Assembly: GCF_026151205.1 (NCBI RefSeq)
Contig: NC_087079.1
Location: 17,480,945-17,540,944 of the forward strand
From: Bolinopsis microptera
Taxonomy: Eukaryota > Ctenophora > Tentaculata > Lobata > Bolinopsidae
Direction of reading: 5' to 3'
DNA length: 60,000 nucleotides
Of the stretch, positions 5,740 to 59,000 are shown piece after piece (the stretch's first letter is position 1; every line of letters starts with the position of its first letter). A program made the translations under genes and the position numbers. The notes beneath the pieces are model-generated. The model worked only from the letters and a program-made list of their open reading frames with translations. It was not told where the DNA came from and ran no database searches.

Positions 5740-6437
5740 GATGGGGTACTCTCAATAATCAAGTACATGAGTACCCGACCCGCCGCGCCACGCAAGCACC
5801 ACACTGCAATTGAAATTGGAGATTAATTAGAAAATTTTTTTGATTAGAAAATTTTTTTAAATCCAAGCAACTTTATTTTTATCGTGCACCCCCTATAAGA
5901 AGAAACCTAGCCAGAGTGGAAGTCGGCGCCCTCATTCAATTTTTGGAGAAAATCGCTCGCGCTCGCCAAAATTTGTTGGACCAGGACGATGTCCTAGCCT
6001 GGCAGCTCATTGCGCGTCGCAACGAGCTTCGTTGTTCGTCGACGTGCGACGAGCAACGAGACAAATTGCGTGGCGCGTCGGGTGGCACATCTTAACGGGC
6101 GATACGCGTATAAATTTCGATCGCTGACGTACAGCGAACATCACAGCTAAGAGTGGCGTCAGCTAGTAGGATTTCATCCTACAATGCAAGGCACATCGCG
6201 TTCATTTAGCTAACCAGGTGCTTTCGCGCCGCTGCGGGCGCGCTTGTTCCACAAGTCATTTCCGGCGGTCGCACGCTACTGCAAGCGAGAGGGCTATACT
6301 TAGAGCAACACATCGCGCCACAAGCCAAATATTTATCAACATCTTGACTAGCTACGCGGTCCTTTTCCGCATGCGCTCGCGCTGTGCTCAAAAATTGACG
6401 TCGTCAATCAATCAACATCAAGATTTTAGTTTTACAT
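5740..6437. other. GC-rich spacer with inverted repeats upstream of LINE
   Basis: The sequence is richer in GC and CpG than its surroundings. Near 5775-5805 a CCGACCCGCCGCGCCACGCAA segment is partly mirrored near 6065-6090, and 6020-6060 holds overlapping CGACG and CGAGCAACGAG palindromes. It could be a MITE, a SINE-like remnant or unrelated flanking DNA. No coding frame is convincing. Confidence 0.4.
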
Positions 6438-8324
6438 TTGACCTTTATGTCTCTAGTTACACCCTTGCACAAAAAGGGGAGTGTATACGATCCGAACAAC
6501 TACCGGGCGATAGCCGTGGCGAGCAATGTTGGGAAGCTGTTTTCAACTATCTTATTACAGCGCCTACTCACATTCCGGTCACTGAACTGTCCAGACACCA
6601 TAAACCAGCTAGGGTTCTGTAAAAAAGCACAGACGAGTGACCACATACTAACACTCTCAACTTGCATCCAAAAGTATGTAACGCAACGGAAAAAGAGGCT
6701 ATATGGATGCTTCGTCGACTACGCGAAGGCGTTCGACTCTGTGTGCCGAGATGCCATGCTCTATAAACTCTGGGAGCTAGGAGTAAGAGGTCGATACTTT
6801 CAATGTATCGAGCAGATGTATTCACATTCCTCAGCAAAAATCAAACTGTTGAACAGATTGTCAGAGACAATCGACATTCACTGTGGGACTGAGCAAGGTC
6901 ACCCGATGTCTCCTGAGCTGTTCAAGTGTTTCATCCACCAACTCTCCCTAGATCTGGATAACGCTGAGGAAGTCAACGTCCCTGAACTGAATAATGTTAA
7001 TATCACTCATCTCCTCTGGGCTGATGATCTTATACTTCTTGCCCTTGATCATACTGGACTACAGAAACTTCTAAACGTTTTACACAGTTACTGTATCGAA
7101 TGGGGACTAACCGTTAACATCGAAAAAACGGCAGTGATGGTGTTCAACCGTTCCGGGAGGCTCCTTAAAGAGAGTCTGACATTCCAACTCGGCGAAACCA
7201 ACATCACATCAGTTCGAGAATATTGCTACCTCGGGATAACCTTTACCCTCAACGGTTCTTCAGCAGTAGCACAGAACAAACTGAAGCAAAAAGGTCTCAG
7301 AAGCTACTTCGCGCTAAAAAGCAGTATTGACTTAAGACACTTCAGGCGAACAATCGTATTCAAGCTATTCGACGCGCTTGTGGTACCGATTGTGACATAC
7401 GGATGTCAGGTGTGGCTCCCAGAGACTCTCTTTGTCAGAAACTATCAAGATAATATCAACACCAAATCTCTCCTGAAGGAGACTGCAAGAGATCCTCTCG
7501 AAAAGCTTCATCTCTCATTCCTCAAGTGGACCTTAGGAGTGGGCAGAAAAACCTCAAATGCGAGTGTATGGGGTGATACAGGCCGCTGCCCCCTAGTGAT
7601 AAAGGCATCAAAGCAAGTATTTGGGTATTTCAACCGACTTGAGCAAATGGACAGAGCTGGTTGCACAAGTCTAGCCAGACAGGCGTTCATAGAACAACGC
7701 ACACTCAATCTGCCATGGTACAAAGGTATAGAAGATCTCCGACAAAGCCTTCAGTCAGTATCATCTCGCAGGTTGACCTACCCCAACCAATTCAAAACAG
7801 CACTACGTAGTACTTTTATTAACTGTTGGAACGAGGAGCGGCAAAACAACCGGAAGCTCAGTTTCTACAACACTATCAAAAGTGAATTTACAGCTGAAGC
7901 GTACCTGAACCTGCAGCTCAGTGGAGAAGAGGTGAAGCGGCTGGCGCAGTTCAGAATGAGTGCTCATAAGTTCAACATCGAGACCGGTAGATACGCCATC
8001 AACCGTGAAAATCCGCTCAGTCGCATTTGTAAGCACTGTTCTTCATCAGACCTTGAAGCTGTCGGTATACTGGCCGAACTACCAATGTTTGAGCCGATCA
8101 TTGAAGATGAGAAACACGTTCTCGCGGATTGTTCGCTTTACGACGACCTGAGGCGAAACATAGGTCAGCAGGCGAGAACCATGATCACCTCTGGAGCGGA
8201 GACCTTTGCCGACCTCTTCAAGGATATCCTATTGATCAGAGAAACTGCCAGATTCTTGAGTAAAGTGAACAAGCGGAGGTTCCCCCCGAGTGACAGAAAA
8301 GAAAAGGAAGGACCTACAACATGA
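6438..8324 (+). CDS. LINE reverse transcriptase, 5'-truncated
   Basis: A 628-residue open frame encodes the reverse transcriptase of a non-LTR retrotransposon, which copies element RNA at a nicked target. The recognisable sequence begins inside the RT N-terminal region (TPLHKKGSVYDPNNYR), so the endonuclease domain is missing and the listed start (a TTG codon) is not a true initiator. Motif A is FVDYAKAFDS with aspartate at about residue 94. The next block is GTEQGHPMSP (150-159). Motif C is WADD (194-197), with tryptophan in place of the usual tyrosine or phenylalanine. A C-terminal Cys/His cluster (ICKHC, then EDEKHVLADCSLYDDL) is the zinc-binding end common in Jockey/CR1/L2-type elements. 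The frame is uninterrupted, which suggests a young copy. The clade is not resolved by eye. Confidence 0.85.
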   Translation: MTFMSLVTPLHKKGSVYDPNNYRAIAVASNVGKLFSTILLQRLLTFRSLNCPDTINQLGFCKKAQTSDHILTLSTCIQKYVTQRKKRLYGCFVDYAKAFDSVCRDAMLYKLWELGVRGRYFQCIEQMYSHSSAKIKLLNRLSETIDIHCGTEQGHPMSPELFKCFIHQLSLDLDNAEEVNVPELNNVNITHLLWADDLILLALDHTGLQKLLNVLHSYCIEWGLTVNIEKTAVMVFNRSGRLLKESLTFQLGETNITSVREYCYLGITFTLNGSSAVAQNKLKQKGLRSYFALKSSIDLRHFRRTIVFKLFDALVVPIVTYGCQVWLPETLFVRNYQDNINTKSLLKETARDPLEKLHLSFLKWTLGVGRKTSNASVWGDTGRCPLVIKASKQVFGYFNRLEQMDRAGCTSLARQAFIEQRTLNLPWYKGIEDLRQSLQSVSSRRLTYPNQFKTALRSTFINCWNEERQNNRKLSFYNTIKSEFTAEAYLNLQLSGEEVKRLAQFRMSAHKFNIETGRYAINRENPLSRICKHCSSSDLEAVGILAELPMFEPIIEDEKHVLADCSLYDDLRRNIGQQARTMITSGAETFADLFKDILLIRETARFLSKVNKRRFPPSDRKEKEGPTT

Positions 8325-14023: not shown

Positions 14024-17000
14024 CTGAACTGACAGTGAGATGTCACGTGATCCAGTCCACTTCTTCATCCGGAGTTGTTGAAGCCAAAGTTAAGTCAAAG
14101 TATCTCACAAATTACCGTTTACAGGAGAAATGCATTTAAAATCAGAGGTTTAAAAGTATTTTTTAAAGAATTTATTTAAAACTGTCATTACTTTGATGCT
14201 TTGCGTCTCCGTTAGTGCGATTATAATTGAGATTGAATCAGCTGTCTGATTTGAAATTGAATTGCATCAGTCTGTCAACTCTGTCTGAAGGTTCTAAATA
14301 AAATCTCATTATAGAACTTGATTCTTTTTCGCGTTAGTTTATGACATCTTACCAAACTTTTCAGAATGTCCTGCCTCATTTCTTCGTGGCCTAAATTGTC
14401 TGCCCTGACACAACCAATCCACATTTTTATTGAGCCAAAACTCGCGGTAATGCAACAAGCAAAATTATCAAAATTAGCGGCGGAAAACTCGAAGATCGCG
14501 GAACATTCGCGGCAGAAAATATAAAATTGGTGGTAAAAGAATGAAATAATTGCTATGATAGATGCCAAAATGTATTATTCATTAACGTTAGCATTTGGTC
14601 GGCACATGGTGATCTAACGACCAACATAAGCTGTAACATTACCCTGCCTTCAGATAGAGGGGAGCGCCTTTTCCCCAATTTTAGTTATGCCAATACTACT
14701 CATTCTCGAGAAAGTCAAGTTATGATAACGTGGTAAAAATACTGCTGAATATAGCTGAACAGCCAACCAAATAATTGGGATTAGAAACTGAGAATGGCAA
14801 AGTAATCAGATTTGTATCGTCGCAGATAGGGGTCGTTCACATATTATTACGTAATCAGCTGAGGGGGGGGGGGGGGGGGGGCCGGGGGTTCCGAATGATT
14901 ACGCTAGTGTAATTTTGACACAATAGCTATGTGTAAAACCGATTACGGAGGGGGGGGGGGGGGGGGGGGTAAAACTGTTCCAAAAAATTATTACATAATA
15001 TGTGAACGACCCCATAACGTGAAAAAAAGTGATTCCGCACATGAAGAGATTTATCCCCCCCCCCCTATTTGAGATACATTGTTCAAGATAAAGGGTAGCA
15101 TAATTTTATGATTCCCACTTCCCTGTTATTGATTGGTTAATGCTCACCAGCTTTTCCCATAGCGAATGGCGATCCAACTTTTCGTGCTACGTCCATAGGC
15201 GTTTCTCCCTGAAAATATTCTCTAAGTAAGTTGTTACAAACTTCCCGCCTAATATTATACAATATTCAGACTTTGCAGCGATTTTAACTAAAGTTTAACC
15301 CGTACAATGCAGGAAACGTCGGCTAAAAGACGTGATCACGATATTGTAATTACGAAAACGAGAAAAGTTTTAAGATCAACCACATCATTTAATTTTTGCA
15401 AAATATTGTATAAAAAATTCATAGCTTTACATAAATTTAGAATAGTGACACAGGGTCTGAAGAATACGCACAGATATTTTATCAGGTAAATGGCAGTAAA
15501 ATTGCGCGGTGGTGTTTAGCATTGTAAAAAATCTCTAAGGTAGTCATATTCGGTTCTGCGATAAACGTTTTGTTGCTCTTCGCTATCAACTTGTGATGTA
15601 ACAAATTATTTATTTTTCTAATAGAACAAAATTCGTTCCAGTTCTGGTCATTCGGCTCAAGTGTTTGGCAAGTTATGGCAAATATCCTCTATAAACCACT
15701 TAACTTTATTGGCTCGATAATGTGGTTTTTAGTTCAACAATAGTCTTATATCATACTCCGCGAATCTAATTTCCCGTCAGTCTAGACGACTGAAATATTA
15801 ATGAGAACTCTTTGACTTAAGGGAGGGTTCAGCATGTGAAACTCATTTTAATATAAAAGTTGACGGCAAATCAACTTCTTAAGAAGTTCCTGACGACCAG
15901 TCAAATATTCCCAAAAGCTAGCGTCGGTGCTCTTCTAGTTGCAACAGCTGGTCTCTTGAGTTCTTACACAATTTTCTATTCAAATTGGATAAAAATAGCT
16001 CATGAGCAGAACGATATGCCCATATATGGTCTTATGTATAGAATTCGGTGATTGATAATAATTATTGACAAATGTAAATTTGTCAGTTATCAAAATAAAT
16101 GTGTTACAAGGAACTTGGACCTTTATTTATTTCCACGTGCTGTACAAGGGTTGAAACGGTCTGAATCGACTATTCATGACTGCAGTCACTATTATACGAC
16201 AAGTTCTATCCAGTCAAAACAATATTAAATCAGAATTTGCTCGCACTGAAGTCAACTCTGTAGTCAATTGCCTTACTCTGTAGTCAATGTACTGCTCTGT
16301 AGTCAATGTACTGCTCTGTAGTCAATGTACTGCTCTGTAGTCAATTGCCTTGCTCTGTAGTCAATGTACTGCTCTGTAGTCAATGTACTGCTCTGTAGTC
16401 AATGTACTGCTCTGTAGTCAATGTACTGCTCTGTAGTCAATGCACTGCTCTGTAGTCAATGTACTGCTCTGTAGTCAATGTACTGCTCTGTAGTCAATGT
16501 ACTGCTCTGTAGTCAATGTACTGCTCTGTAGTCAATGTACTGCTCTGTAGTCAATGATTTGTTAACGAACCTTGTTGTTGGTAGCTTCCTGAGAGGCTCC
16601 GTGATAAAGAAGACAGCTGAACGCAAGGATCTGTGATTTGGAGGCTGCTGCGTGTAACGGTGTGTTCTGACAACCTGTCACGTGAGCTAAATTAGTTATC
16701 TCACTCCGCAAACAATACTCCGTGTTATCTCACACTTTAGTTTATATTCTTAACTAAATAACGTTTTATAACAATTTTTTTTAGAGTACATTTAAAATTA
16801 ACCAATGGACAATCTAAAAAGCTAAAAGTAGCTGAAATTGTACCAAGAAATTTAAACATACTGTCAGTGGAGTTGGGATCGAGACCTTGTTCTAACATCC
16901 AGTGCAAACAGTTGATACTTCCGTTCTGTGCTGCCTGCAGGAAATTGAGCTGTGTTAGAAACGTTGATACTTCCGTTCTGTGCTGCCTGCAGGAAATTGA

Positions 17001-20000
17001 GCTGTGTTAGAAACGTTGATACTTCCGTTCTGTGCTGCCTGCAGGAAATTGAGCTGTGTTAGAAACGTTGATACTTCCGTTCTGTGCTGCCTGCAGGAAA
17101 TTGAGCAGTGTTAGAAACGTTGATACTTCCATTCTGTGCTGCCTGCAGGAAATTGAGCTGTGTTAGAAACGTTGATACTTCCGTTCTGTGCTGCCTGCAG
17201 GAAATTGAGCTGTGTTAGAAACGTTGATACTTCCGTTCTGTGCTGCCTGCAGGAAATTGAGCTGTGTTAGAAACGTTGATACTTCCGTTCTGTGCTGCCT
17301 GCAGGAAATTGAGCTGTGTTAGAAACGTTGATACTTCCGTTCTGTGCTGCCTGCAGGAAATTGAGCTGTGTTAGAAACGTTGATACTTCCGTTCTGTGCT
17401 GCCTGCAGGAAATTGAGCTGTGTTAGAAACGTTGATACTTCCGTTCTGTGCTGCCTGCAGGAAATTGAGCTGTGTTAGAAACGTTGATACTTCCGTTCTG
17501 TGCTGCCTGCAGGAAATTGAGCTGTGTTAGAAACAGTTGATACTTCCATTCTGTGCTGCCTGCAGGAAATTGAGCTGTGTTAGAAACGTTGATACTTCCG
17601 TTCTGTGCTGCCTGCAGGAAATTGAGCTGTGTTAGAAACGTTGATACTTCCGTTCTGTGCTGCCTGCAGGAAATTGAGCTGTGTTAGAAACGTTGATACT
17701 TCCGTTCTGTGCTGCCTGCAGGAAATTGAGCAGTGTTAGAAACGTTGATACTTCCATTCTGTGCTGCCTGCAGGAAATTGAGCTGTGTTAGAAACGTTGA
17801 TACTTCCATTCTGTGCTGCCTGCAGGAAATTGAGCTGTGTTAGAAACGTTGATACTTCCGTTCTGTGCTGCTTGTGGAATGTGGCTGTGCTCGCTTTAAC
17901 CTCGTACAGCTCAAACCACAGTGCATAATACACTATAATTATAATCATATCGAGATACTGTTGTATTTGAAAGTCGTGCAGGAGTTCAACCGCTTAAGTG
18001 GTGTGTTGGCGATAGTTCCATAGCTGTCCTCACTGTTCTGAATATTTAGATAAAAAGTACATTCAAGTTGGGACTGGTTAGTGTTTACAATTCAGGATCT
18101 GTTCTTTCCTACGTTTTGCTCAACCCCCTACCCCAGCCTATCAATTATTTCATTACAGAGTGAAATTTGCGATACCTTGTCGGCCGGCTGTTAACCACCT
18201 GTTGACTACTGACTTGCTGACTAGGTGCTATAATTCGTCACAGGTTTAAAATCGTTTTCCTCCATGACTTCTGAGTCAGAGAATTTTCTGTTACCTGTCA
18301 GAACTCGGACTAAATTTTGTGATCGGCCTTTCTGCCAAGTATTCTGAGGAAAACACACGTTATGATAGAGAAATGCGAACTTCCTTGCTGCCAGAATCCA
18401 GATGTTGAAAGATTTTAGTCTCTGGTGTATTTAAGGAACAATTTGATTTGAAAAGTCTCTCCTGACAAGTCAGAAGTATAATTATATGTAGAAGGGCCGC
18501 AGACTCCGAGCGTCTAGGTCTGCGTAATTTTACTAGTTGAGTAGGTAAATATGTTCTTTGAGTTTGAGTTATTTAATATTAAGGCACAATAATTGTGACA
18601 AGGATTCCTACAAATTTATTTCCGTATTTTCATTGATCCACTATTCAGTCTTCACAAGTGTTAATGATTGATGATGCTGGAGGCATGAGCACTTTTAATC
18701 TCCTCTTATGAAAGTCAAATATAGAGTTTGTTTTTTTCTCCATGTTGTCCGGAAAATAAAACCTACTTCCGTTGATCACTTCAATATTAGGCCGTTAATT
18801 AGCTTATACACGCTAATCTAACTGCATATAATGCGATTACTGGTGTAATCGTGTAATACATTCAGTTAGATTCGCGTACAACTCCACGGTTCAGGGTTCT
18901 GGTGTTATAATAAGTGCGATTAGTTTAAAATCGCACCAAATATAGAAAGAGCCAAATCGAAAGCAAATAACTATAGCTTAGGTAAGTTACAACTTAATTT
19001 CGACAGTAAATTGTCTGTCCTCATAACACTCGGGAAATTATCGGTTACCAGTGTCCACGATTTTTCGGGGAAATAATTCCCCACTTTCACCCAAAACCGG
19101 CAGATTTATATTGCTTCTCCTTTGCTTATCATGAATACCATGTTCTGCCTGCATTACAGATCATGCTCAACATGAGTTACTAAGATACTAATTAGTTATT
19201 ATATATCTGTCGTTAATGGCGATTCATTAAGCCGTCAGCTAAGTAATTAAACTTAGGCTAGACAGAAGTTATGCGACATAACGGAGGACTGTAAAATACC
19301 CACCATTAGGCAGCTAAGTATCACCTGGACAATAACACACCTGTCACTGTAACGGTAATAAATGTCAGCTGATCAGACGCCTAGCACTTAATACTCAAAT
19401 ACTCCGCAAGCAATCCTCCGTGTGATATTTTATCAGGGAATCACATGGCACTACCCTCGTGTAGATTATTGGACGGGAATATTGTATTTATGGCGTTTGC
19501 AGTTAGTTTACTTTAGTTTCCTATGGTTTCCCGCATTTGTTCTTGTATAAGTTATGCAGACATTTAAAAAATTCTCCATTGGTCTAGTATACTATACCAC
19601 CTACCGGTCCTCACCATCTCCAAGTATTTTGAATACACTAATATATGAGAGTAAAAGGAGGGCTAAATACCGCTACTAGTGAATTAATATACTTACTCGT
19701 AAGTCTATTCTATGCGAAACAACATATACTCGCTCAATTCGTATGTTGTTTCAGCTGCACTTTTGTATACAACTTTAACAGAGTTGAGGGCAATTCATAA
19801 ACTCAAACTGTAAACGACTATCCTTTGTACCAGAGGTAACATATAAGTGCGGTGGGTGCGGAGTCACACTATTGATCTAATACCGCACTTTTCCGCACCA
19901 TCGCTATTCGATTTATCAGATTTGTGCACTTGGTACTAATGTGTACAATAAGAACAGATCGGAATGCCCATAACTATGATTAGGGTAACGATATATTTCA

Positions 20001-23000
20001 AGCAATATATTTTGCCATGAATCTTGGCAAATGAATAACTTCTCAAGCTGGATTGCAATCTCTGGGGGACCACGAACCCCCTCCAACCAGTTTCATAGCT
20101 GTTCATTGTCATGTTTCCTTCGTGGAGAAGTGAAGATATTTGGTGGAGGACCTCATGGCTCGTAAGCCAAATATTAATTGTCCACTGATTTGACTAAAGC
20201 GGCCATGTCTAGGAGTTCTTTAGGACACACCATGGACATTATTCTGTTCAAAAGTAACGTTTTATGTAGTATATTAATTTGTTATACTATGTATAATAAT
20301 TTTTGACATCTTTCCATTACGAATGGTATTATTTGTGGCTCCAAAGGTTATCGCCGTTTGGCATGCACTGTTCCAGGAAAAATTATACTTCTGACACAAA
20401 CAATTAGTTCAGGAACAGTTAAACATTAAAAACACATAAAACATTACTTTTGAACACAAGAATGAACAATGGTCTGTCCTAATTTCATTTAGTTATTTTA
20501 AATATTTAAAATCTCTCGATTTTTGAATCCGAGAATTTGACCATTTTCGCCGGGAATACTCAAAAATATCTCAAAAATTATTTTTGAATCTGAGAAATTC
20601 AGCATGGATTTCTAATTTTCTCAAAAATTGTCCACTCAAAAATAGTGATATACCAAATCATTCAATTGAGATGAGAATGAATTTTTGAGAATGAGTTTTT
20701 CGCCTCTCCTGAAAACTCTTCTCAAAAATAATTTTTGAGAATGAGAATTTGGCCATTTTCGTCGGGACTCTCAAAATTCTCATGATCCCCCCCCCTATTT
20801 AGCTCGCTTTAAGCTTGACAAATGACAAGATCATCTGTCATGCTTAGAGCAAGCTAAATATTTAAAATAACTAAATGAACCGAAGACGATACAATTTCAG
20901 AATTACTTTCAATTTTAAACGTTTTAAAACGGGATAAACTACCAATAGTAGATTGTAAGTAGAAATTTCTTGGATCGCATCCTGGACACTCATAGTCTCA
21001 TACTCTCAGAGTCATATTTTAGTGTTTTTATTCTTCGAGTTTTGAACTGATTTAACATCCAATAATGTCAATGTAGGCCAGATATTAACCTTGTCCCAGT
21101 GTATAATATTTTACATGCCGGAAATGCCTGATTGTTAACTCAAGCAAATGTACTTTCAACAGATCACATTTTACAGAAATTAACAGTATTAACCGGTGGA
21201 ATAATTTAATATTTAACACAATGCGCGGCGGTTGAACGAACTTAACGTCATTCTTTTTGTATTTCTGCTGACAAGGATAGCACCTAATATTTTTTCCTTT
21301 TGTTCTGTATAAATTTATGATGATTTATACTAATAATCTCAATAAATAGGTGTGTCTGTCTGTAATTTACGAATGGTTAAATCAATCATTATTCATAATT
21401 GGGCAGTTTACAAGAAGCCCGACTGGTCCATGGACCACTGGTCTATGGACCACTCTAGGTGGTCCATGGACCACTGGTCCATGGACCACCTTATCACTGA
21501 ATAAGTGGTCCATGGACCACTTTAACAAGGTCCATGGTATCAGCAAGCACTTTAGCTTCCATTATCATATGATCCAATCATACGGTAGACTTCTTCGCTA
21601 AGATTGCAAGATGTCAGTATTAACTACGAAAAACGTCGCAGAGATATATAAGATGAATTGTGGTACACAGCCATCGTCGTTTTCGATATACAAGACAGAT
21701 ACTTGTACACCACTACTGTGTTTTCAATATGAGCCACTCACTACACAACGAAATCCATCGGATTACAAATACTGATGAGCATGCAAGGGATTTCCTCTTT
21801 CAACGTGGTATTCTGAAGTCCTCTCTTTCCTGTCCTGGGTGCTCTTCTGCTATGAACCTTGTACCCTGCTCCTCTAAGAAGTCCTCAGACCTTCTCATCT
21901 GGCGGTGTTCACCCTGCTCAAGGTTTAGGAACATACGAACGGATAGTGTACTCTCTGGACAGAAGCTCACCTTCTCACTATTCCTACAGCTGGTTTTCTA
22001 CCTCAGCATCAAATCCCTTGCAAATGTAGCTATCTCTCAGCTCATAGGAGTATCAGAGAACACCATCAGTGACTGGAAGACCATGATACATACAAGAGTA
22101 GCTGACTTTCTGGTATCCAATCCCTCTCCTCTCGGTGGACCTGGTGTTGTCGTGGAGATGGATGAGGCCAAGTTAGGAAAACGCAAGTACAATAAAGGAG
22201 CTTACAGAGAAGGGCAGTGGGTGCTTGGAGCTGTAGATCGGAGCAACGGTAACTGTTTCCTACTACCCTGTCCGAACAACAGCAGAGGTGCATCCACACT
22301 ACTCCCTCTGATTAGACGCTGGATCCTCCCTGGTTCTGTTGTCTATACTGACGAGTGGGGAGCCTATAACAGCCTAACTACCGCTGGCTACACTCATCAC
22401 ACCGTCAACCACTCGATCCAGTTCGTGGACCCGGCAACTGGCGTTCATACTAACACTCAGGAAGGACTTTGGGCTCATGTGAAAAAATCTGTTGTTGGAA
22501 AAACTGACTTGGAACTAGCTCTTGTTGATTTCATGTTTCGTAGAAGATTCCATGCCACAGGAGGGTCCCAGCAGATTTCTAATTGTTTTAATGGGTATCT
22601 TTCAGTTTTAAAAGCATAAATTTTTGATTATTTCTCCGTTACAGTTTCTAAAATCGCAGTTATTATATTGTTCTATTGATTACCTATTCATTCCTTATCT
22701 TGATGTGATAACTTCGTGTTACGGGATCCGATCCATTGGGCATTTGTGTCAAGCGATCTCTTCAGGTTATTACTCAAATATCCGATCATGTTGCGAAATC
22801 AAGCTTGTTAGGTATCAGGTAGTTTCCCGCTCCTTGTTAATCGGTGTCAAGTCTTCGATATATAATATGCGAACAGACAGTGAGAAGTATTGATTTTTTG
22901 CCATCGACCACAGTCTACTACATCCTTCAACTACATATTTGTACCCTCCACTACCCTACTATGGTTTACACATCTGACAAGGACAAGAGATTGAACAGCA

Positions 23001-26000
23001 TCAATTCCTGTGACCCAATCTGCAAACCCTACGTTCCGGATTCTCCTCCACTCCCACCAACCTTTATAGCTCCAGAGTCCTCTGCTCCTCCTTCTCAAGT
23101 CGCAGATACAGACCTGGATTTGTCTGTGCACACTGAGCAGATTCTCGAAAGATTAGAGAGTGGTGACGATCCACTGAACCTGCTACCTAGAGACCCCTCT
23201 CCTCTACCTACCTCCCCAACTGTCGACTCTCCCCTCAACCTCATCGAGATACCGCCTCCTCAACCACTACCAGAGAGCTCGGCAGGACCTATCAGACGGA
23301 GGAATACCACACGGAGGAACATGGAAGCAGCAATCCATCAACAATATCCTCTTGTTTTGGAGATGGTGAAGAGTGGGACGAGCGCAAGGCAGGCTATTCA
23401 GCAGATTCAGATGCCCAGATCAACGTTCTACAAGTGGCGTTTTGTTGCAGAAATGAAGCTTGTCGACTCCTCACACTATCATCACCTAGCTGATCAGTTC
23501 AAGGGAACCAAGCTGTGTGATCAATGTAAATACTGTTTATTTGAGGACTCTGCCTCTCTCAGAAAGACAGAGGAGATGAGGAAGAGCTCCGACCTTCTCC
23601 CTCTATCTATGTAAATTGTATGTTATTTACTTTTGTAATACTTATTATGGTCCGTTTCATGGCAAAAACATTTATTGATTTTGTATTAACCCTTCGGGGC
23701 TTGCGTGACCCTTATCATAGAACTGGTTTTCAGGACTGGCAGTCTGACCTATTGCCTTGCCAGCATAGGTGTACTTATATAGTTTTGCATGGTTCAGTTG
23801 CATAGTAGTGTCCGAATTGCACTGATTCTAGCCCGAGTAGTGTTCGAAAGGGCGCCCTGTTTTGACATACCTCCTGAGCCGGTACTCATTTCCTCTCTGA
23901 GCTAGCTAGTGTATATCAGTTTCTTGTTGGTGTTTTGTCTGTGTTTGTTTGTCCGTAGTAGGAATTTACTGTAACTTTGGAGACTGGGCGCAGTAATGTC
24001 CCAGAGGGTTTGTAACATCATGGATGCTGACTAAGCTTACCTGATCCTCTCCAACTTGTATTAGTACACTACTTCATTCACACCAGTCATTTCACTACAT
24101 TAAACTGATTGAGGTTATGCCCTTTGTACATGCTGAAGCGATATGCTATGATGAGTGGAATATGAGTTAGGATCAGTTTGGTCCGTTTCATGGCAAAAAC
24201 ATTTATTGATACTTATTATACATATTGCAATCATAAAGATGCCAATTTCAATTGATAATAAACAATTAGATATAATCTTCATGAGTTGACTTATGGTGGT
24301 CCATGGACCACTGTACCTTGGTGAAGTGGTCCATGGACCACCTATAGTGGTCCATGGACCACTGGTCCATGGACCAGTCGAGCTTCTTGGAGACTGCCGA
24401 AGAGAGTTTATTTGGTCAAGCATGAGACACTATGGACTTCCTGAGAAATATGTTAAAATCTTTCAGGCATTTTTCAACGGAACCATGAGTGCTGTCAGGG
24501 TTAATGGTGAAATGTCTGATTGGTTCTCTGTTAATTCGGGCACTGGACAGGGTGATATCCAGGGCCCTCCTATATTTAATTTTTGTCTGAACTTTGGAAT
24601 CTTTTTGGCCGAGGTTCACAAGGCAATTAGTCATGGTGCTGTACTGCAAAAGGAACTAAAGGGTGCAGATGAAAAAGTTATCATGGATAGTGACTACGCT
24701 GATGATCTGGCAGTGATGGACAATACTGAAGGGCTGCAAGAGTCCACTGATCTTATCGCTTATTACACCTCTTATGCTGGGTTAAAGATCAACGCTTAAA
24801 AGACACAATGCATGGCGATCAACAAGTGTGCGTCCCAGCGACCTTACACCGAAAGAGACAGTATAAAGCTAACAGTGGAGGGAGAACCTATTGAACCGGG
24901 CAGTAACTTTGTTTATCTTGGTGCCAACATCAGTGGTGATGGTACCATTGACCGAGATCTTGACATCAGGATCCAGCGTGCTAAGCTACTATCGTCGAAA
25001 ACACTATTATTTTTGTTTACCAATATCCTCAAACTCAAATGAACGTGTCCATATAGCAGTAATTGTTTCATTAAACATAAGGTAAATTCTATTGTCTGAG
25101 TCACAGGTCATTAGTTGTTCACCTAAATCATGAATACAATGATCATGATACGTAATAAATGGTAAACCACAACCAAGCAGACTATAAGTTAAAATAGTAT
25201 TATTGAACAAAGGTTACAGGCAGAAACATCATCCGTCGTCAATCTTCAGTGAATTATATAGCGATAAACTGTTCATTTTACTTTATATGATTCTACTGGT
25301 CGAATTTTGAACTATAAATTTGGCGAAATCATACAAGCTTTACAGAGCAATGATAATTGGAGAGAGAGAGAGAGAGAGAGAGATAATTGGATGTGTAAAA
25401 CTACGCAAGTCCACAATTTTGTTCTCACAATTTGTTGGTGTAATGTAGGTAATGTAGGTGTAATGTAGGTAATGTAGGTAATGTAGGTCTCTCATTTCCA
25501 GTTATAATGGGTACTTGAGAACAAGACGCACTGTTTTATACGGTATCCTTTGTGTATCTACTTAAATTGTGCAGTGCATTTAACTCTGTATATCGTTTGT
25601 GCCTCGTTGTCATTGACAAAACACGGAGAGTCATATAATTTGATTGATAATTTCCGTGTTTTTAAAACTGGAAAGCATCCCAAACCTCACATTAACTAGA
25701 CTAAATTTCAGATAAACATGTCCAACGGAACAGATCATCATGAACATCTAGGAGATCCCCCGATCAGAGGACTAGACTTAACCCTAGCTATCCTGCTCCT
25801 ATTCAGTCTTCTCCTGGGTACCACTGGCAACCTAGTCTCACAGTACTTCTTCTGGAAACAAACTCCACGCAGCACTAACAGCACCTTCTTCAAGAGGATA
25901 TATCAAACTATAAGCGGTGTCGACCTACTCATCTGCATCACCCTCTTCCCGGTGATAGAGGCGTTCTTCAAAGACCCTGAATCTCAGGCACCTGTTCTAT

Positions 26001-29000
26001 TTGGTGCTCCATGGTTCTGTTATAGTTGGGGACTGTTGTGGGAGGTCCTGCCTGCTATCTCTGTGTTCCTAGTGGCAGTTCTGAGCATATCAAGACTGGT
26101 TCTCTTGCTCAATCCTACCATACAACTGAGACCAGTCTTGTTTGGAGTACTGGTGGGAGGGTATTTTACCCTAACTGTGGGTGTCAAGTGCGGACTGATA
26201 TTCTCGCAGAACAAGATGGCGTATTGGGTGATTGCCAGACATTGCATCATGGTGTACGATGGCCCTGGTAAGGAGGCAGGTGAGCTAGATTTTGACTCTA
26301 ACCAGCTAAAAACGACTGCAGTAATGATGGTTCAGCTGGCTCTCCCAATCTTTCCAGTTGCAATGAGTTTTGTAACCACCATGACAACGTTATACAAGAC
26401 AGAGCGTGCTTCAAAGCGTGTCAAATCGTCCTCAAAAGCGCAGCACCAAGCTGGAATTACGGTAGTCATAGTGACCTTCGTCTACATCTTATTCAACCTG
26501 CCGGTGGTGGTGCACTTTGGGCTCATCCTCCGCTGTGTTGTGGAGCACTCCCGACCAGACACACTCGAGAAAGTGTGCCACTACGAGACCATCTACTCCT
26601 CGGCTAGTTCCTACTACTACATGTGGCCCTTTATGTATGTGGTGTGCGTAGCTCTAAACAGCACCGTCAATCCTGTAGTGTACTTTCTGAGAATGAAGCA
26701 GTTTAGAAAGTTTATAACGAGTAGGATTTATGAGAATTTTAGATCTGTAGTCACAGTTAGATTGAGCAACATGTCATCTTCTGCTTGAATGTCGGACTTG
26801 GATACTGGTGACTGGTCTCACATTTCACAAGGATATATTGTACTGGTGACTGGTCTCACATTTCACAAAGTCATATTGTTTAACCATGACAGTGTCACTG
26901 GTGACTGGTCTCACATTTCACAAGGATATATTGTTTAACCATGACAGGGTCACTGGTGACTGGTCTCACATTTCACAAGGATATATTGTTTAACCATGAC
27001 AGGGTTTTAAAGATAGAACTAGCTTGCAATGAAATCAAAATGGCCACTACCAAGCTAACGGACTAAGAATTAAAATTTTGATGAGAAAGTGATAAAAATA
27101 AATAACTGTTAAGAAAGTTTAATGATACTCAATTAGTTAATTTGAAAACCAGACAGTTTACATTTTTCCCTACCTTGGTCAATTTTCTCGAGTGAAATAT
27201 TTTGCATCATTGTTTTTGGTGACAAATATTGCTCTTGATACTTCAAGATAGTGGGTGCTGACGTTTTTAACCAATTATCAATAGTAACTACATACAAATA
27301 AGAAGTAGCAATGTACATCATTATTTTTACCAAGGTGATACAGTTTGTTACTTGCTAAATGACATGGTTATTATTCAAAATAAGATTATCAGTGTGGTTG
27401 AATTGTGTTCTTTATTTAATAAGTTGTTTCTTACAGTCGCCTTGGCATGGTTAGTAACCTCCTTGTATTGGTGTTTTTAATCATATGAGCTGGAGACAAT
27501 TAATGTGCAATGAATTATTAATCTGCTGAAAATATGTTGACACCGGACCATGTCACCGGACCATGTTAGATTCTCTACTATCGTCAGATGAATCGGACAT
27601 TTAAAGACTTTCCACTATTTTTGTTCATATATCTTTATCGACCAGGGACAAAAAAGCAGAGCTATCTCTGATTAACAACAACTCTGATGAGAAGCTTTTT
27701 ATTTCAACTTGATGTGATAATTTAGTACTATTTACTAATAGTTGAGGGTAGGGAGTGTTGCCGCCGCTAGACGATTAATGTAGGAGGTAGTTCCACAAAT
27801 TGGCGGATTAGTCTACTACTATACTCCTAATTAGTCTACTTCTAATTAAAGTTTCAACACTTCGTGAAATTAAGAAACGCACTGACAGGACGTTCAATAT
27901 TAGGTAGTCCTGTTAGAGAGCTATTTATTATTTAATATTCTTATTGGGTACCGACCATGATCAGTCGACTGTGGTACCACACAATTTCCGAACGTTAGCC
28001 GTCAACTCTGTTATTTCACTCCGATATTTTACCATCGGTTAGAGCCGGTTGTTGATTGCATAGTCGCGGATCTGGCACGAACCTTGTAAGCTCCTGATTA
28101 GTATAGCTCTGATCCTTGGTCAGCTGCGTTCTGGCTTGTAAACAGGGACTAAGTGAGGGTCTAGCAGTTTTATTTCGCTAATTAAGAATGTCGATCATAT
28201 CAACTGTTTTGTGATAACAGATCAGTTTAGTTTGAGCTGATTGTACTTCACAGGGTTCAGACGGACCATTGAAATATTTGAAAGTTTGATAAAACTACAA
28301 ACCTTGCAGCTATAAATCACGTGAGCAAATTTGAATCATATTTTTACGCGGATGTAATTGATAATCACTCGTGTGACCTGAAAACATCACCGCATGGCTG
28401 CACGTTACTGCATGTTACTGCACGTTACTGCATGTCACGCTCAAATCTATCACTTTATTGATATTAAGACCTCCCGCAGAGATAAGTGGCCAACATCTGT
28501 CTTCTCTGTTGTACAGTCAGCCACTCCTTCAAGCTGCTCAACAAAAAACACAATTCATTAACCAGTCCTTCAATATTTTAACCCAGCTGCCCCACCTTGA
28601 CGTCAGCTAGACCCAGACCCCTGCCAGCAATTGCCAGCATTACAATAACCTACTTGGCTACTGACGCAGTTTGTGAACTGTGAACGCTTCCCAACTATCC
28701 CGAACTATATAACAACGTGTTCTATGCTGTTATCTCATAAATCTGAGAGCTGCTTTGATTAGTTCCACTTCCATAGTGCCGTTCATCAGACATTTTAAAC
28801 AATGTTTTATTCACAGCACCACACCTCACAACGAAAATGTGGCACAAGGTTACCTCTTGCCAAACCACATATTATAAAGTTAACACCACATATAGTTTCA
28901 TACGATCACTTGTTATTGAATTAGACACATAAAAAGATTTGTTAAAATTCCTTTCCCACGGTGAAAGAACACTACTACACGTGCACGTGACTAGATAACT

Positions 29001-32000
29001 AATAAATCTGATAACGTAGGTCTCATGTTCATTAATATATTTTGTCGTGCTCTTTTAATCGAGAAACACTTATCTCGGTAAGCACAGAATTAAGTAGAAG
29101 CTTATCAAAATAACTCTTCCTCTCTATTATTTCATTGTGAGAGGGAGTCCAAAGAGAAAAAGTGGACTCAGGATTGGTTTTAAGAATGTTTTAATACCTT
29201 TCTGTGTTGTTCAATAAAATAAAATTAGTTGGCGGTTGCACTCTTTCTATGTTTCATATAAACAAGACTGGTTCTGGCAGAGCATTAAGAAGCCACCAGA
29301 GAATTTACAATTAGCCATGATCGTCAACAAATAAATGGGGCCTTTTTAACACCGGCATTATTCGCTGAAGAATGGCTCGAGACCGACGCAATATAATGGT
29401 TTATAATACAATAATACCTTCCCTTCTTCGGGCCACGCGTGATAATTCCCGACAGCTTGCTGGAGGGAATTTGCGGCCCGAAGAGCCGAAGGCATTATTA
29501 TATTATATCTATTGACGATGGCTCGTGTAAGATACGTGCGCATGATACAATATAGTGTGTAATAATATATAGTGCGCCAATGTTATTTGTTTTGAAACTT
29601 CCCACCGAGGTGACTCGCAGTATGTGCTGATAATACCTTGAGGGAAAAATCTGCAAATTATCAGCTCTCAGTGTCGACGAGTTTTAGTGCATATAATTCC
29701 CGGAAATAGTTATATTTTGGAATACTTTGTCCAATAAGATGCTGTGATTTGTCGCAGTGTGTTTACAGAAATATTACAGCTGATATCCCAATATTATCAC
29801 CCATTTGTCGCAGTGTGTTTACAGAAATATTACAGCTGATATCCCAATATTATCACCCATTTGTCGCAGTGTGTTTACAGAAATATTACAGCTGATATCC
29901 CAACATTATCACCCATTTGTCGCAGTGTGTTTACAGAAATATTACAGCTGATATCCCAATATTATCACCCATTTGTCGCAGTGTGTTTACAGAAATATTA
30001 CAGCTGATATCCCAATATTATCACCCATTTGTCGCAAAAGCAACTGATTAAATGTCGAGTTTCAAATTTGTAGCTCTTGTGCAAAGTGCTGGCAAATTTG
30101 CTACTAATTTGCTAAGTCAACTCCAGCACTGACTCCTACTAAATGTCCGCGGATCACCATCTTGCGCTTTATGCGCAAATAAAATGATACTGTTTTGGTC
30201 CGTATCGTAGTCATAATTCGTCTCTAGACGACTGACGAGACGACTGACGAGAGGATATCTTCAAATTATGACTGTAGGCTATTTTATCGAATTTTTTTTC
30301 TGGAGTCGACTGAGTGAGGAGCAGAATATTGGGGAATCGGATATGAAATTAGTGTCTACCTAGAATATGTGCTAAAAAGTCAAGCTGGTGCTCTGAAGTG
30401 ACTAAATCACTTAAAAAATCACTCAGATACACAAAGTACACTAGTTAATAGGCACATGTAGCAAGCAATCTGTTAATAACTTGCTTCACATGTTAATCAA
30501 TGGAATCACTAAATTAATAAGCAATCGTGTAATAAATTAGTTACTTTGTGAAGAAGATATTAATGCAACAAGTTGAAATTGTTTAATTATCTCAATATTT
30601 AACTTGAATTGGATTGTAACAGGAGATATTGAGAAAGACAGTACATATTAACAATATTATTATCAAACATTGTACAGTAAATATAGGGTCTATAGGGTTA
30701 TGTCTTCTCACGTATTCAAGTATTTATCCTATTATAAGTAAGTTTATAAAGTAGTTCAGCTTGCTACTATACATTTTTCTGTCATGCTCATAGTTTAGTA
30801 GTATTTTTATTACTGTTTCAAAATTGGATATGTACGGTTTTTTCCGGCCGAAATAGCACCAAATTGAAGGTGCTAGGTTGTTCGGGAAGGGAAAAATGCT
30901 TTCTATAAACTGAAGCATCACAGGAAACAGAGTAACCAGTTCACCCATAACAGTTCAGACTTTCAGACTATAAAAAGAGCTATCAAACCTAAATAATGAC
31001 AATGAGAAATACATCCTGCTTAACTTGTTTCCGAGGACTGAGTTTCCTTCTTCATATTACTACTTGTAATAAATAAACATCAATTTGTGTGAAGGCACTA
31101 CTTTTCAATTGAATATGGTAAAAAAGCTGATAATATGATAAAGAATCGTATACTCACAATGTGGCCCAGACATTTTCCCATGTTATCATTAGTAAGCATC
31201 AGATTTAGCTTTGCCTGAAATACAGTTAACGCGTTAGTCACTTCAAAGTGCAATTCCAAGGCTAGCCCTTGTAATATCTGAAGACTAACGTCTCATGTCA
31301 GCGATAGGACCAATTAGTATTATAGTGTTAATTGGCGCCTTGTTTGTTTTGGGCCTGTAACTTGGTGAAGTAAGTGCATTCGCACAGTTTACTGGACAAG
31401 GAGTTCAATCTGGTTTGTTGAGACCCACCAAATTATAGTATAATGAAACTCCCCACGCTGTCATGTGACATTTATTAAATAAACTATCTAACCCGACCAT
31501 AACCATAAGACATTTTTGAAGATGTTAATTTTCTCTGATCGACTACCAAGTGAAACAGTTATCTCAGGTTAAAATTGTACAGTAGAAATTTTCAAACTGA
31601 CTCGTCCGTATTCATTCTCAAATTATTTGTTATTTAGTAATGTTGAAAGTATTAAAACTTAATAAATCCTATCTAACTATAGAGCGATAGCTACGAAGCT
31701 GGGACAATATATTGTGGATACCGAGTGAGAAAAGCATTTCCTCGCCTGCCTCTCTGACGGGATTATCCATTTAACTTTACATGAGCCGACAACTTTACTA
31801 TAATTTATTAACTGCTAGTAAGGGAGAGGTTAAAGTTTGGTTTATTCAGGCGAATGCTAGCGTTAAGTTGCAAATGTTCAGTTGCAATTGCTAAATACTG
31901 TAAATTATGTTTTTTTAAAAGTATCTACCGACCAGTTCGAGTTCAGACGAGATATTTAATTAAAGATTTAATCAAATTTTCACTTTCAGTCGACCCTCTA

Positions 32001-53000: not shown

Positions 53001-56000
53001 ATTTAGAATATATATTTGCAAGTATCCACACTATATTTACATTACACGTTCAACGTGATATCATTATCAGTGCAGTGTGTACAACAGTGTGTACAACACC
53101 AACTACACCGATCAATTGCCAATCTACGAAACATTTTAATTATTATTATCACTTCGCATTATCACACGCAGTTGTGTGTAATCAGTGTAGCTTGTGTTGC
53201 AAATATCGAGCTCTCTTATCTTTTGTAAATTTGCAATAAGTTCAGTTTGCTGCTACCGCGTAGCTTACCTTTGCGTGTGTACTTGTACATTACTATACAA
53301 GTACACTATGGCGGATGACCCTACTCTGACCCGATCCCAGGAGTTGATTAAGGAGTTCAACTATGATCAACAGGAAGATGTGGAAGGCTGTGTTGCACGC
53401 TGGTCCAGTCAGTTAGGAAAAGACCTGCATATGGACTACAGTGAAATTGACTACGACAGTCGTGAAAAGATCAAGACTAAGGATAAACAGACTCTGTCTG
53501 GCTGGATTGTGAAGGCAGTGGACCTTGTTCGTCGGCAGAATAGTCAGATGTATCTCTTGAAGGAGATCATCGAGTGCTTCAAGACGGAAGCACTAGCAGA
53601 CAAAGAAAAGGTGATCAGACTGCAGGGCCAGCTGCTGATGCAGAAGGACGAACAACTACAGTTGCTTAAGACGTCTGTTGAGGAGACAGTGCAAACAACG
53701 GTGGAGTCAGGGATTCAGAACTATAGTGCAGCTGTTCAACGGAACAGTGCAAGTGGTACGGTCTGCAACAGTAAAATCCTGAAGAAGGTGATGAAGAGTG
53801 TGGCTGCAGAGGAGGACAGGAGCAAGAACCTGATCGTGTTTGGGCTGAAAGAAGAGGAGGAAGAACAGCTTCCAGCGCTAGTTACCGCAGTTTTGGAGGA
53901 GATCGGGGAGAAACCTCGCTTCGAAGCGACTAGAGTCGGTTGGAAGAGGCCAGGTAGTACGGCTATCCGACCAGTCAAGATCACCGTCCCAAGCTCAACA
54001 GCGGTTCATCAGATTCTGATGAAAACAGGGAGACTGAGGGAGACGCACAAAGATGTATGGATATGTCCAGACAGATCCAGCGAAGAACGAGCAACAAGGA
54101 AGCATCTGGTCACTGACCTGAAGAAGAAAAGGGCTGAACAGACTCATCTCGACCACTACATCCGGTACGGGAAGGTATGTAGCCGTGATAAGAAGTCATC
54201 ATGAGTTATTCATGTCTCTCGGACACTGATCAGTATATGAAGGAGTGATGAGTATTTTAAGAATTTTCAGACGTTATCTGTATTTGAGAGACAACTATAT
54301 AATTTGAATATTTTATTATTTGATTGTTTCACACTTTTCATATTTCATAATTTTATTACTAGGTGGAGGTGATGTTATTGAGACTTTGGGCGGCCATAAA
54401 ACTCCTGTTTTGAAAGTTGTCCTCTGTACTTGTTTCACTGACCCACGCTTTATAGCATTTATACATTTCGGCCCATTTTATATGTTTGTTCGATTTGCTG
54501 TACATTTGTATATTTGCTATTTTGTAAAAGTTTCAAATCAAATCAAATCAGATGGTAGGCCCTATAATTATACGTATTACGTGATGTGCGCTCAGAATTA
54601 AATTTACTCTAATGCGGTTGGTTTCGACTGAGCGAGTTTGTACTTTTGCACAATTTTAAATTTTGCACTGTTTATACTTTTGCAAGTCAACTGAGATAGT
54701 GAAGACGAAGTCCCGGCCGTAGCCACGTATTACACTAGTATTATATAAAATATAAAAGTCAACAATATCATATTCATCTACTTACACTTTTTGGAACCGA
54801 TTCTTGAAAGAGGATGGTTTTATGGAGTTGTCTAATGCAGTAATTCAGGATGTCTCTTTCTCTTCAAGTGTTTAGAAAAGATCATTCTGTACCAATTATA
54901 ACGGTTTACTGGTTTAATGATATTAACAATTTTGGCGATCCAGGGAGCATCTAATTATAATCTACGATCACGGTTCCAGAATTGCGTACAAACTGACTTA
55001 ACTGGGTGAATTTTGTTTCGCAGCTCATATTAATGGGTCGAGTTATCTCCTTTTTGATTACTTTATTAATTGAAAATTTCATTTTAAATTGGTCGTTATG
55101 ACGATTTAAAGAATGAATAAGTCATAATTTAGAATTTACTGCTTATGAGCACACCTCCTGCTAACCTAGTTCGTGCGTATGTTAATATAAATTCACGTTT
55201 GAGAGAATTACATCACTGCTTCAAGTTGAGACGTTCGCTCAACTACCCAGGATTAACTGTCAGCTTTTGATTAAATATATTCCAATACTTGGCAAGATTT
55301 GATTAATTTAGTTGATTAAAATTTGACCAGTAAACCGTTCAGGCACCAGCCTCACCTGAGACAAACTATTGAAAACATGCAAGAGTCGACGACAAGTCTA
55401 GTATTTTAATAAATCGTTTTAAAGATGGTGCCGTTACCATTTAGTCTATAAATCACCTCCCACTATAATTGAAAGTTTCTCTATATATTTTATAGGTGCG
55501 GTTAAATCCCATTTTAACCAATAGTTGAGCTGAACATGCGAGTAAGCAGTTAAATTGTGAAAGCTGCCCAGGAGAAAGACAAGTTTTATCGAACCGTTAT
55601 TTCGATGGTGTAACCGCTAAAGTGTGTGTATATATATATATATATATGAAACTGATTTAATCACCATTTCTAAAAGCTTCTCATCAGATGATGCGCATGC
55701 TGTTGTTTTCAAATGCACGTGCAGTTTTACACAGTCTTTGAGTCTTCGTTTTTAAGGATAACGTAGTGTGAAGAACAAAGACCGGTAAATCTTTATTTAT
55801 CATCAATCACATGAACTAGTGATTCAATCAATAATCATCAATTATCTAATAGGCAATAATGACGAAAAGTAACAACAGTTTCCACTATGCAACAGAAGCA
55901 CTTACACAGAGTTACTCAGACTACACATTTGGAACCATTGCTTTGTTTGGCTTCGCAGTGGGTGAGTACACATTTGGAACCATTGCTTTGTTCGGCTTCG

Positions 56001-59000
56001 CAGTGGGTGAGTACACATTTGGAACCATTGCTTTGTTTGGCTTCGCAGTGGGTGAGTCTATACTGATACATCAAAGTTTGGGATTTCTTATCAATTTATA
56101 CCTTCATAGATTGCGTTCAACATCGAACTATTGATATAGACCAATGTCTTTGCCACACCACCCTTGTGGAAGACTTCAAGCAGCATGCTGCTTTGAATCA
56201 ATCAATTTTACGCAAATTGCATTATTTTAAATGTGAATTACATTCAAAACAGTTTATGAGATTTCTTTTATTATTAAATAGCTAAATAGATAAAGTTAAA
56301 TTTTATTCAGCACTATAATTACATCGGTAAATATTTGATTAATTCTATTCTCACGACTACGAGTCACGCTTTCACGCCGCCGATCACATTAGGCCTTTAC
56401 TTGCCAGATTATTGTTGTTTCTAAAGCTCGTTTGTTTTAGGGATGCCAGGAAGTATGATGACGTTTGGGTACTTCCTCAGCAAGGAGAAGAACATTAGCT
56501 CCATTCAGTATATGATGATTAGCGTGGTCGACAGCATCATTACTTTCCTCTTCCTCTTCAATGGTTAGTTGTTTAATAAAGAAAATTCCTTTCATTTTTT
56601 CAAGAAAATTTCTGATTTTTTCTGATTAGACTCAGAGATAAAAATGAACATAAATCACGTACAAACAATAAAATAAATCAAATTAATTGTTATATAGTAG
56701 TGTTGAAAGTATTAAAAAAGTATTTTAATTGAAAGTATTAACAAATTATTTTAATGCTTTCAAGTTCACTATTTACTGTTTAACAAATAATTTGAGAATA
56801 TGAGTATGACGTAAAAATGTCGATGTACGTGATGTACCTTCATTAGAAAATTGTCATCATTGAGTGTATTCAGAAAAAATAAGACATTTTTTGACAGAAT
56901 CATCAACTGAGACTCAATAGTCAATATCATTCAACGACTTAATCAGATTATTCCTCAAATTTGTATCAATGATCATAAGATTAGTACCTTAGTGGTGGGT
57001 TTTGGAAAATTCCGCCATATTTTTCCCGGTCATTAATTTTCCCAGTCATAAATTAACCCGCTATAATGTTCCCGAGTAAGGTAAACTAATAGTAATACAT
57101 TTTGATGCTTGGTGGGTTTTGGAACATTCCGCCATATTTTTCCCGGTCATTAATTTTCCCAGTCATAAATTAACCCGCTATAATATTCCCGAGTAAGGTA
57201 AGTAACCAATCCGTAAACTCACATTCCTTACAGGGTTATCAGAGTTCCACAACAGTGCCCTGATGTTCCAGTACGAATGGTTCTGTGTGTCCTGGGCGTT
57301 TGCCTGGCAAGCGTGTACCCGTTTCTCCATTTTCCTGGTGGCAGTTCTGAGCATCAGCAGAACTGTTTCTTTAGTGTACCCCTTCTACAAGATAAAGAGG
57401 AAAAGTATTCTCATCCCAATAGGGATCTACCTGATGGTAGTGCTGGGACAACAGATGCTGCCCATCATTGCTGGCAAGTCCTTCTGGTACGCGCGCAGGC
57501 TCTCCATGTGTACCTGGCTCCTCACAGATGTAGTTAACCTCAACTCAACGGAGTTCAAAGTGCTTCACTTCTCATTCGTCACCTTGGAGTATGTCATCCC
57601 TGCATTTCCTATACTGATCAGCTGCGTCATCACTATCTGTCTCCTGAACCAGAGAAGAAAGTTCAGCACCGGCCACAGGGTCCCAACTGAAGAGTGAAGC
57701 CACAAAAACAATAATTTATCTATCACTAGCTTACATTTTTTTCAATGCACCCCTGATTATAGTCTGCATTCTAGAATCAATCACAGTTCTATCAGATTTC
57801 AGATTCCAGATCCAGCAATTTGGCCTGCCAGTTCCGGTGGTCAACTTCATCTACACTCTTATAGGAAACCATGCTGTGGCTCTCAACTCCACCACCAACG
57901 TGGTTATATACTTCTGCAGGAAGGAGGGTCTCAGGAAGTTCTGTTGGAAAGTCCTCACTTGTTCCTGGGAAGAACTGCATACGGATGGAGCTAACATTGC
58001 TTCCAGCAGGAAAATAGGACTGTACAAATCACAACTCAGCAGTAGAAACAACACTATCAGCACCATCTTCTCCCCTAAAGGCAATAGTCCACTTTCCACT
58101 GGCAAAGAAAACAGTGTGGATGCTTTGAGAAGGCAAGAGTCCATACTTGTTTGACAGAATTCGATAATTTATCTTTTGTTTAAATGAATGTTTTGAGTTA
58201 TCGCGAGATAGACAAAGAAATGACATCAAACTTGTGACTCAAGATTCTGTTACGGTACATGTTTAATTTAACATTTACTGCTAAACTATTTCATATTAAT
58301 AATCATATTAGCATATTGAACAAGAAATTTTTCCCCTGCTTATTAAATGAAGAGCAAACAAACTCAATTTATCAAAAATTTCTCTTTGAAAGTATTATAA
58401 CATTTTATGTCAGTTGAATGTACAAAACTCCGATTTACTGCAAACCCCGATTTACTGTGGCCATCTACATAGGGCTTACACGTTTATTTTCTCTCAAAAC
58501 CCCACGGTACTCTAGTAGAAGGGAGGAGTTGCTACTTGAGCACGGTAAATTAGGGTTTAACTGTATTGTGTGAGAATTTTATGCTCATTAATTTTATGTT
58601 TGGGTTGTTTGTATTACGTTTTAACGAATCGAATATGATTGATTAAATTCACAGCTGATATACGTGGAGATTCTGGAAATCTCTCAAAAACAAAATAGAA
58701 AAAAAAATGCTGAGCTGGATTTGAATGGAATTTAAGCGAAGATGTTTTTTAATTATTTATTCGCTGTAAAATCTTGGTTTTTAATTTAACATTTAATTAC
58801 CTGTAGATCGACCCCTCTCTCTAGCAAAGTTTTCAAACTGCTGTTATCTGCTACTGTTGATGCATAGTGACTGCAAGTCCGACCTGTAGAAATACAAACG
58901 TTAATCTGGATGTAGTTTATCCTATGTTAGATGACAAGTTGCAATTAGATCTTGTCCAACACTCAATCTAGTGTTAAAACCTAAACTGCATCACAGTTAG

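Follow-up and report, generated by a model that had tools for sequence, protein, structure and literature searches.

The DNA analysed here, called the window, is a stretch of 60,000 nucleotides from the ctenophore Bolinopsis microptera. Its minus strand encodes ankyrin repeats, and the exons of this ankyrin gene were placed between 60028 and 58801, followed by an exon at 31214–31158, a 73-nt exon into which a 52-bp minisatellite extends, and a probable last coding exon, the stop codon of which lies at 16564–16562. On the plus strand, a GPCR-like gene bears a second, shorter array at the end of its exon 1. Table 1 summarizes the positions. The ankyrin frame, the splice sites and the phases were found intact across the last exons of the ankyrin gene. 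The minus strand, followed as far as 30 kb below the window, gave no other convincing ankyrin match; one weak row of 20.8 bits at approximately −3700 was not ankyrin-like. The intron that bears the minisatellite also carries a transposase ORF (21657–22616).

Table 1. Features of the ankyrin gene and of the GPCR-like gene, in window positions
Feature	Positions	Strand	Evidence
Poly(A)-signal-like AATAAATAAA	16122..16131	−	
Probable last coding exon (SCQNTPLHAAASKSQILAFSCLLYHGASQEATNNKVR, then stop), acceptor ACGTGACAG	16562..16674	−	
Ankyrin exon, 73 nt (AAQNGSINCLHWMLEQGLDPNSTD), donor GTATGT	16862..16934	−	Pfam PF00023/PF13637; length-matched alignment to another ankyrin frame
Real 3' splice site (predicted): CTAAC branch-like motif, ACAGCTCAA, TTTCCTGCAG	16935..16958	−	Sequence
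52-bp minisatellite, intron end and exon start	16906..17871	−	TRF and unit listing
Region with 17 decoy 3' splice sites	16987..17843	−	Unit listing and translation
Single 53-bp copy, reads CAACTGTTTCTAAC	17507..17559	−	Unit listing
Leftmost copy: exon half only, 3' splice-site half missing or decayed	17848..17871	−	Unit listing
Upstream exon (AKLNLMLTNDNMGKCLGHI), donor GTGAGT, acceptor TATTTCAG	31158..31214	−	
Exon 1 of GPCR-like gene, first donor used	55859..55961	+	Uninterrupted paralog aligns with joined product from end to end
Second mirage, three 45-bp copies of exon end and donor	55922..56057	+	TRF; single-copy paralog L067
Exon 2 of GPCR-like gene (MPGSMMTFGYF...)	56441..56563	+	

Anatomy of the ankyrin array and its true acceptor

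The array was characterized by TRF (period 52, 18.5 copies, 98% matches) and by a listing of its units on the minus strand, which gave 18 full copies, the true exon start being counted among them, and a leftmost half-copy. The unit consensus reads CTAACAC[A/T]GCTCAATTTCCTGCAG up to the boundary and GCAGCACAGAA[C/T]GGAAGTATCAAC after it. Each full copy contains a branch-like CTAAC, then TTTCCTGCAG, then the first 24 bases of the ankyrin exon. The tandem unit therefore spans an exon/intron boundary, which is itself predicted from the sequence. In every unit, CTAAC lies approximately 20 nt before the end of TTTCCTGCAG, and it is a plausible branch site. The minus strand of the window contains TTTCCTGCAG 18 times, always inside the array and once in each of the 18 full copies; the plus strand lacks it. 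These observations agree with the main proposals of an earlier first-pass annotation, namely that the minisatellite was derived from the 3' splice site of an exon in the sense of the ankyrin gene and that about 18 copies carry a branch-like CTAAC with an acceptor. Its unit length of 52 bp was confirmed for 16 of the 17 copy spacings, and one spacing was 53 bp. It had also counted some 18 decoys before the real exon; there are indeed many acceptors with TTTCCTGCAG, of which 17 are intact decoys (first exon-like base after the AG at 16986, 17038 ... 17819), the leftmost copy, at 17871, retaining the exon half alone.

The array varied little, with a C/T difference at a single exon site in 4 copies and one additional T. 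This T, which is present in the true exon (CAACTGTTTGCAC), was kept in the 53-bp copy, and the other inner copies read CAACGTTTCTAAC. CACAG was present in 16 of the 18 full copies and CACTG in the other two. The variants among decoys fall at three sites, represent few independent events and all lie outside the branch motif and the acceptor core; the variation among array copies gave no sign that decoys were being disabled. The left flank resembled the unit marginally (anchored P 0.009, local P 0.13), compared with 98% likeness in the array.

Further copies were sought in the genome (264,652,675 bases, 232 contigs). Searched as DNA, 301 bases covering exon and array gave no copy elsewhere, all eight matches being to the locus itself, and both matches from a protein search with the exon were also to the window's own locus. 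Matches may escape such DNA and protein searches for the array or exon, and there are remote ankyrin relatives. No close homolog lacking the ankyrin array came to light, so the pre-array state was not seen. A search of the genome for COX1 gave no match.

The exon was taken as 16862–16934 because of its ankyrin register, its Pfam score and its match to an uninterrupted ankyrin frame. Joining 31158 to 16934 yields DNMGKCLGHI/AAQNGSINCLHWMLEQGLDPN with normal ankyrin spacing, and the Pfam Ank score was 39.4 bits with this acceptor versus 34.6 bits with an acceptor at 16949, which would add LNFLQ to the spliced product. Moreover, residues 14–80 of the spliced product aligned with 201 nt of an uninterrupted ankyrin frame at another genomic site, with 67 codons covering the 67 residues and 37% identity. 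The exon had previously been read as 16862–16949, with 37 of its bases in each copy and with CTAACACAG as an acceptor. The start at 16949 was rejected on the ankyrin register, the lower Pfam score and the loss of CTAACACAG in 2 of the 18 copies, and the exon bases carried by the array were reduced to 24. Use of CTAACACAG as an acceptor is also unlikely because its AG and the branch-like A are approximately 5 nt apart. AGs very near the branch can be bypassed, as described in PMC1431707.

Predicted outcome of upstream acceptor use

The message expected from the true acceptor was translated, as were those from the 18 upstream positions, including the degenerate leftmost one. With the true acceptor, the frame was open to the stop in the last exon; by contrast, a premature stop was obtained from all 18 upstream acceptors. 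With one extra unit, the true exon is read out of frame and a TGA in it ends translation 2 nt before the last exon junction. The remaining 17 cases end at the TAA of a copied CTAAC, with 93 to 926 nt left to the last junction. As the unit length is not a multiple of three, this TAA soon falls in frame. Consequently, the earlier expectation that the frame would be kept when the extra units numbered a multiple of three was rejected. Stops far upstream of the last junction generally trigger NMD. Messages with two or more extra units, in which 93 nt or more separate the stop from the last junction, would thus be expected NMD targets, while the product of one extra unit would be truncated. Judged from these translations, choosing a wrong acceptor copy would yield a truncated protein and would not fine-tune it.

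Immediately upstream, the true acceptor has the same sequence as most decoys, and it is set apart by how far it lies from the donor and by what follows further downstream. Predicted local RNA folding did not favour the real acceptor: with each of the three window sizes, the accessibility of its 10-nt site was below the decoy median. An RNA structure exposing only the true site was accordingly unsupported, the true site being the less accessible one. The fold of six units had an energy of −57.1 kcal/mol, and among 200 arrays of letter-shuffled units 71.5% were at least as stable.

A second array and the frequency of arrays at splice boundaries

The second array, in the GPCR-like gene, duplicates an exon end together with its donor. 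All three of its GTGAGT donors (55962, 56007 and 56052) are in frame and would add 0, 15 or 30 residues. A paralog that is uninterrupted at this point (C6:4602015-4602239) matched the first-donor product from end to end, with 63% identity over 75 residues in 75 codons. Another paralog, on a different contig (C4, locus L067), showed identities of 98.4, 95.3 and 97.9% over three aligned stretches. It has one 45-bp unit instead of three, and the alignment gap of 90 bp corresponds to two units; the intron length differs as well. By these alignments, a 5' splice-site array has been gained or lost within 2–5% divergence, suggesting that array change is rapid here. The Pfam match to the receptor family was weak (7tm_1, E 0.0056, below the cut-off) and came from the later part of the gene.

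Array coverage was counted for arrays of at least 3 copies with a period of at least 10. These arrays occupied 9.5% of the window bases, and 0, 0, 8.4, 7.1, 59.7 and 0.4% of its six 10-kb neighbours. In 30 kinase loci (113 kb), used as a gene-rich control, the coverage was 1.2%, and these loci held 14 TRF rows with at least 3 copies. The 25 ankyrin loci (80.9 kb, some overlapping) contained long coding ankyrin repeats and scattered short arrays. Two of the 15 splice boundaries placed in the window lay inside arrays when compared with all 55 TRF rows, a count that was made after the arrays had been seen; a narrower count with 4 TRF rows and 12 boundaries gave 2 of 12. Approximately 1.4 of 15 boundaries would be expected in arrays at 9.5% coverage and 1.8 at the 12.0% covered by all rows. 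The observed number is therefore near chance for a repeat-rich window, and no special targeting of boundaries need be assumed. At the kinase-locus coverage of 1.2%, the expectation would be 0.2 of 15, which the observed 2 would exceed, and against this control boundary targeting is possible.

Origin, splicing behaviour and related systems

Minisatellites across exon/intron boundaries have been described in amphioxus as "mirages" (PMC3087553, PMC3902484), in Adh3 and the globins BflGb6 and BflGb9 (PMC3087553), to which TnC and PGBD5 were added by PMC3902484. As these sources describe them, BflGb6 resembles the ankyrin array in repeating the 3' end of an intron and the 5' part of an exon, and BflGb9 resembles the second array in that the 3' boundary of an exon is duplicated. 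The 52-bp unit of the ankyrin array falls within the 10–72 bp of the Adh3 units; its 18 copies compare with 6 and 3 units of 150–160 bp in BflGb6. Adh3 arrays are reported to be somatically unstable, and the Adh3 data together with globin RT-PCR suggest regular splicing (PMC3087553, PMC3902484). The ankyrin array also differs from the amphioxus mirages in its host, a ctenophore.

The likeliest reading, which we consider quite probable, is that the ankyrin array is likewise a mirage minisatellite that arose by ordinary expansion and that its last acceptor is the one used. A tandem duplication would have happened across the intron/exon boundary of the ankyrin-repeat gene, its first step perhaps at TGTTT, a short match shared by exon and intron. 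This match is proposed because CAACTGTTTCTAAC, CAACGTTTCTAAC and CAACTGTTTGCAC differ at the T, the original intron side being gone. The T may then have been lost, and slippage or unequal exchange probably multiplied the unit until there were 18 near-identical copies. The spliceosome would mostly use the last copy, because this is the sole copy 73 nt from the exon's donor and, following an intron of 14 kb, the exon would be recognized by exon definition. The one to three copies closest to it would be expected to take some of the splicing; if only these leak, added distant copies should matter little. Thus, the array is probably neutral or mildly costly rather than a regulator, and the gene probably still works despite it.

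It is unlikely, in our judgement, that the array acts as a copy-number rheostat, a bank of poison acceptors in which longer arrays lead to more NMD or truncated protein and so set the level of functional message. The 17 decoys do share TTTCCTGCAG with the true site and every decoy product contains a stop, and an intragenic repeat with effects of copy number on splicing is known from the VNTR in intron 6 of hTERT (38-nt block 6 repeats), where a minimum repeat number is reported to be needed for skipping of exons 7/8 (PMC6562651). The hTERT repeat differs, however, in acting inside the intron through proposed RNA:RNA pairing, and its units are not described as acceptor copies in the cited parts of that report (PMC6562651). 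Moreover, regular splicing was reported to be undisturbed by the amphioxus mirages (PMC3087553, PMC3902484), and under exon definition the nearest copies alone would compete, so that any effect would saturate. In a self-limiting form, which we regard as improbable, array length could set gene dosage without ever lengthening the protein, as mis-spliced products terminate because CTAAC holds a stop codon and the unit length is not divisible by three; the lineage may have enough such arrays for this to provide heritable expression variants.

The array might instead help splicing, with its repeated branch and pyrimidine motifs and the exonic GAACGGAAG making a 73-nt exon easier to recognize behind an intron of 14 kb. 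The whole recognition block is repeated in each copy, but the usable-looking AGs in the copies would divert splicing and no result of this analysis favoured a helper role, which seems very improbable. Inactivity of the exon or gene, the array having grown in a decaying gene, is equally hard to credit: the intron holding the array also holds the transposase ORF, but the intact ankyrin frame, splice sites and phases over the last exons argue against decay.

Human internal tandem repeats at exon–intron boundaries in segmental duplications are likewise boundary minisatellites and alter splicing between paralogs, with mean units of 30 bp in four copies; some are reported to form new introns through cryptic sites (PMC2812944). 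Unlike these repeats, the ankyrin-array unit appears to lack a strong donor. It has a good acceptor and two GTs, GAA/GTATCA and AAC/GTTTCT, both of which are poor donors by eye. NAGNAG tandem acceptors also offer rival acceptors for one exon; their AGs, however, lie 3 nt apart and in frame, whereas use of an ankyrin-array copy would always truncate the product. With acceptor spacings of 52 nt, and once 53 nt, the array is not a NAGNAG acceptor. In C. elegans, a minisatellite is reported to be enriched near alternative exons of some genes (PMC4039745).

Mirages are already known but rarely reported, and the ankyrin array is a further case, probably in another phylum than the amphioxus cases. 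It has more copies than the globin mirages and, in addition, a built-in stop. The finding extends mirages from amphioxus to a ctenophore, and the pair of GPCR-like genes, with one and three copies, presents both states of such an array side by side. The ankyrin array also constitutes a natural experiment in splice-site choice, in which one exon has 18 nearly identical acceptors and distance is almost the sole difference among them. If the last acceptor is cleanly used, exon definition alone can resolve the 18; if it is not, array length would be a dosage allele.

Repeats at the ankyrin gene and elsewhere

As CCTGCAGG is palindromic, the plus strand of the 52-bp minisatellite (16906–17871), which repeats the 3′ splice site of an ankyrin exon on the minus strand, carries 18 acceptor-like TTCTGTGCTGCCTGCAGG sequences. 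The 19-bp minisatellite begins 5 bases past the ankyrin stop codon and probably lies within the 3′ UTR. In the 33-bp duplication, the branch-like ACTAAAC was copied, while the complete AG was not. Very long minisatellites were observed at 45833–47896 (43 bp × 48) and, in its own coordinates, at the locus L010 (L010:1–4836; 49 bp × 98.7).

Features in the window
Feature	Position	Strand	Context or basis
19-bp minisatellite, 15.7 copies	16256–16556		Probable 3′ UTR of ankyrin gene
33-bp duplication	59506–59573		Adjoins acceptor of ankyrin exon starting at 59504
GPCR-like gene, first	25718–26785	+	
GPCR-like gene, second	about 55859–57941	+	
45-bp unit × 3	55922–56057		Exon end and 5′ splice site, GPCR-like gene
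Reverse-transcriptase-like ORF, first	6399–8321	+	Pfam search
Reverse-transcriptase-like ORF, second	41513–43225	−	Pfam search
Reverse-transcriptase-like ORF, third	49743–51611	+	Match below Pfam cut-off
ISXO2-like transposase ORF	21657–22616	+	Pfam search

GPCR-like genes and mobile-element-like ORFs

Among the mobile-element-like ORFs, the third reverse-transcriptase-like ORF also showed a weak GIY-YIG match. The two GPCR-like genes were related to each other, and both were located between ankyrin-gene exons, in the orientation opposite to that gene. The Pfam 7tm_1 match was weak for the second gene, and the Pfam search of the first gene returned no 7tm_1 match.

The 45-bp array

The GPCR-like gene with the 45-bp array was compared with its paralog at L067, a locus on another contig (C4) of the same genome. 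The two were 95–98% identical in three stretches, and the 45-bp unit was single-copy in the paralog, compared with three copies in the window.
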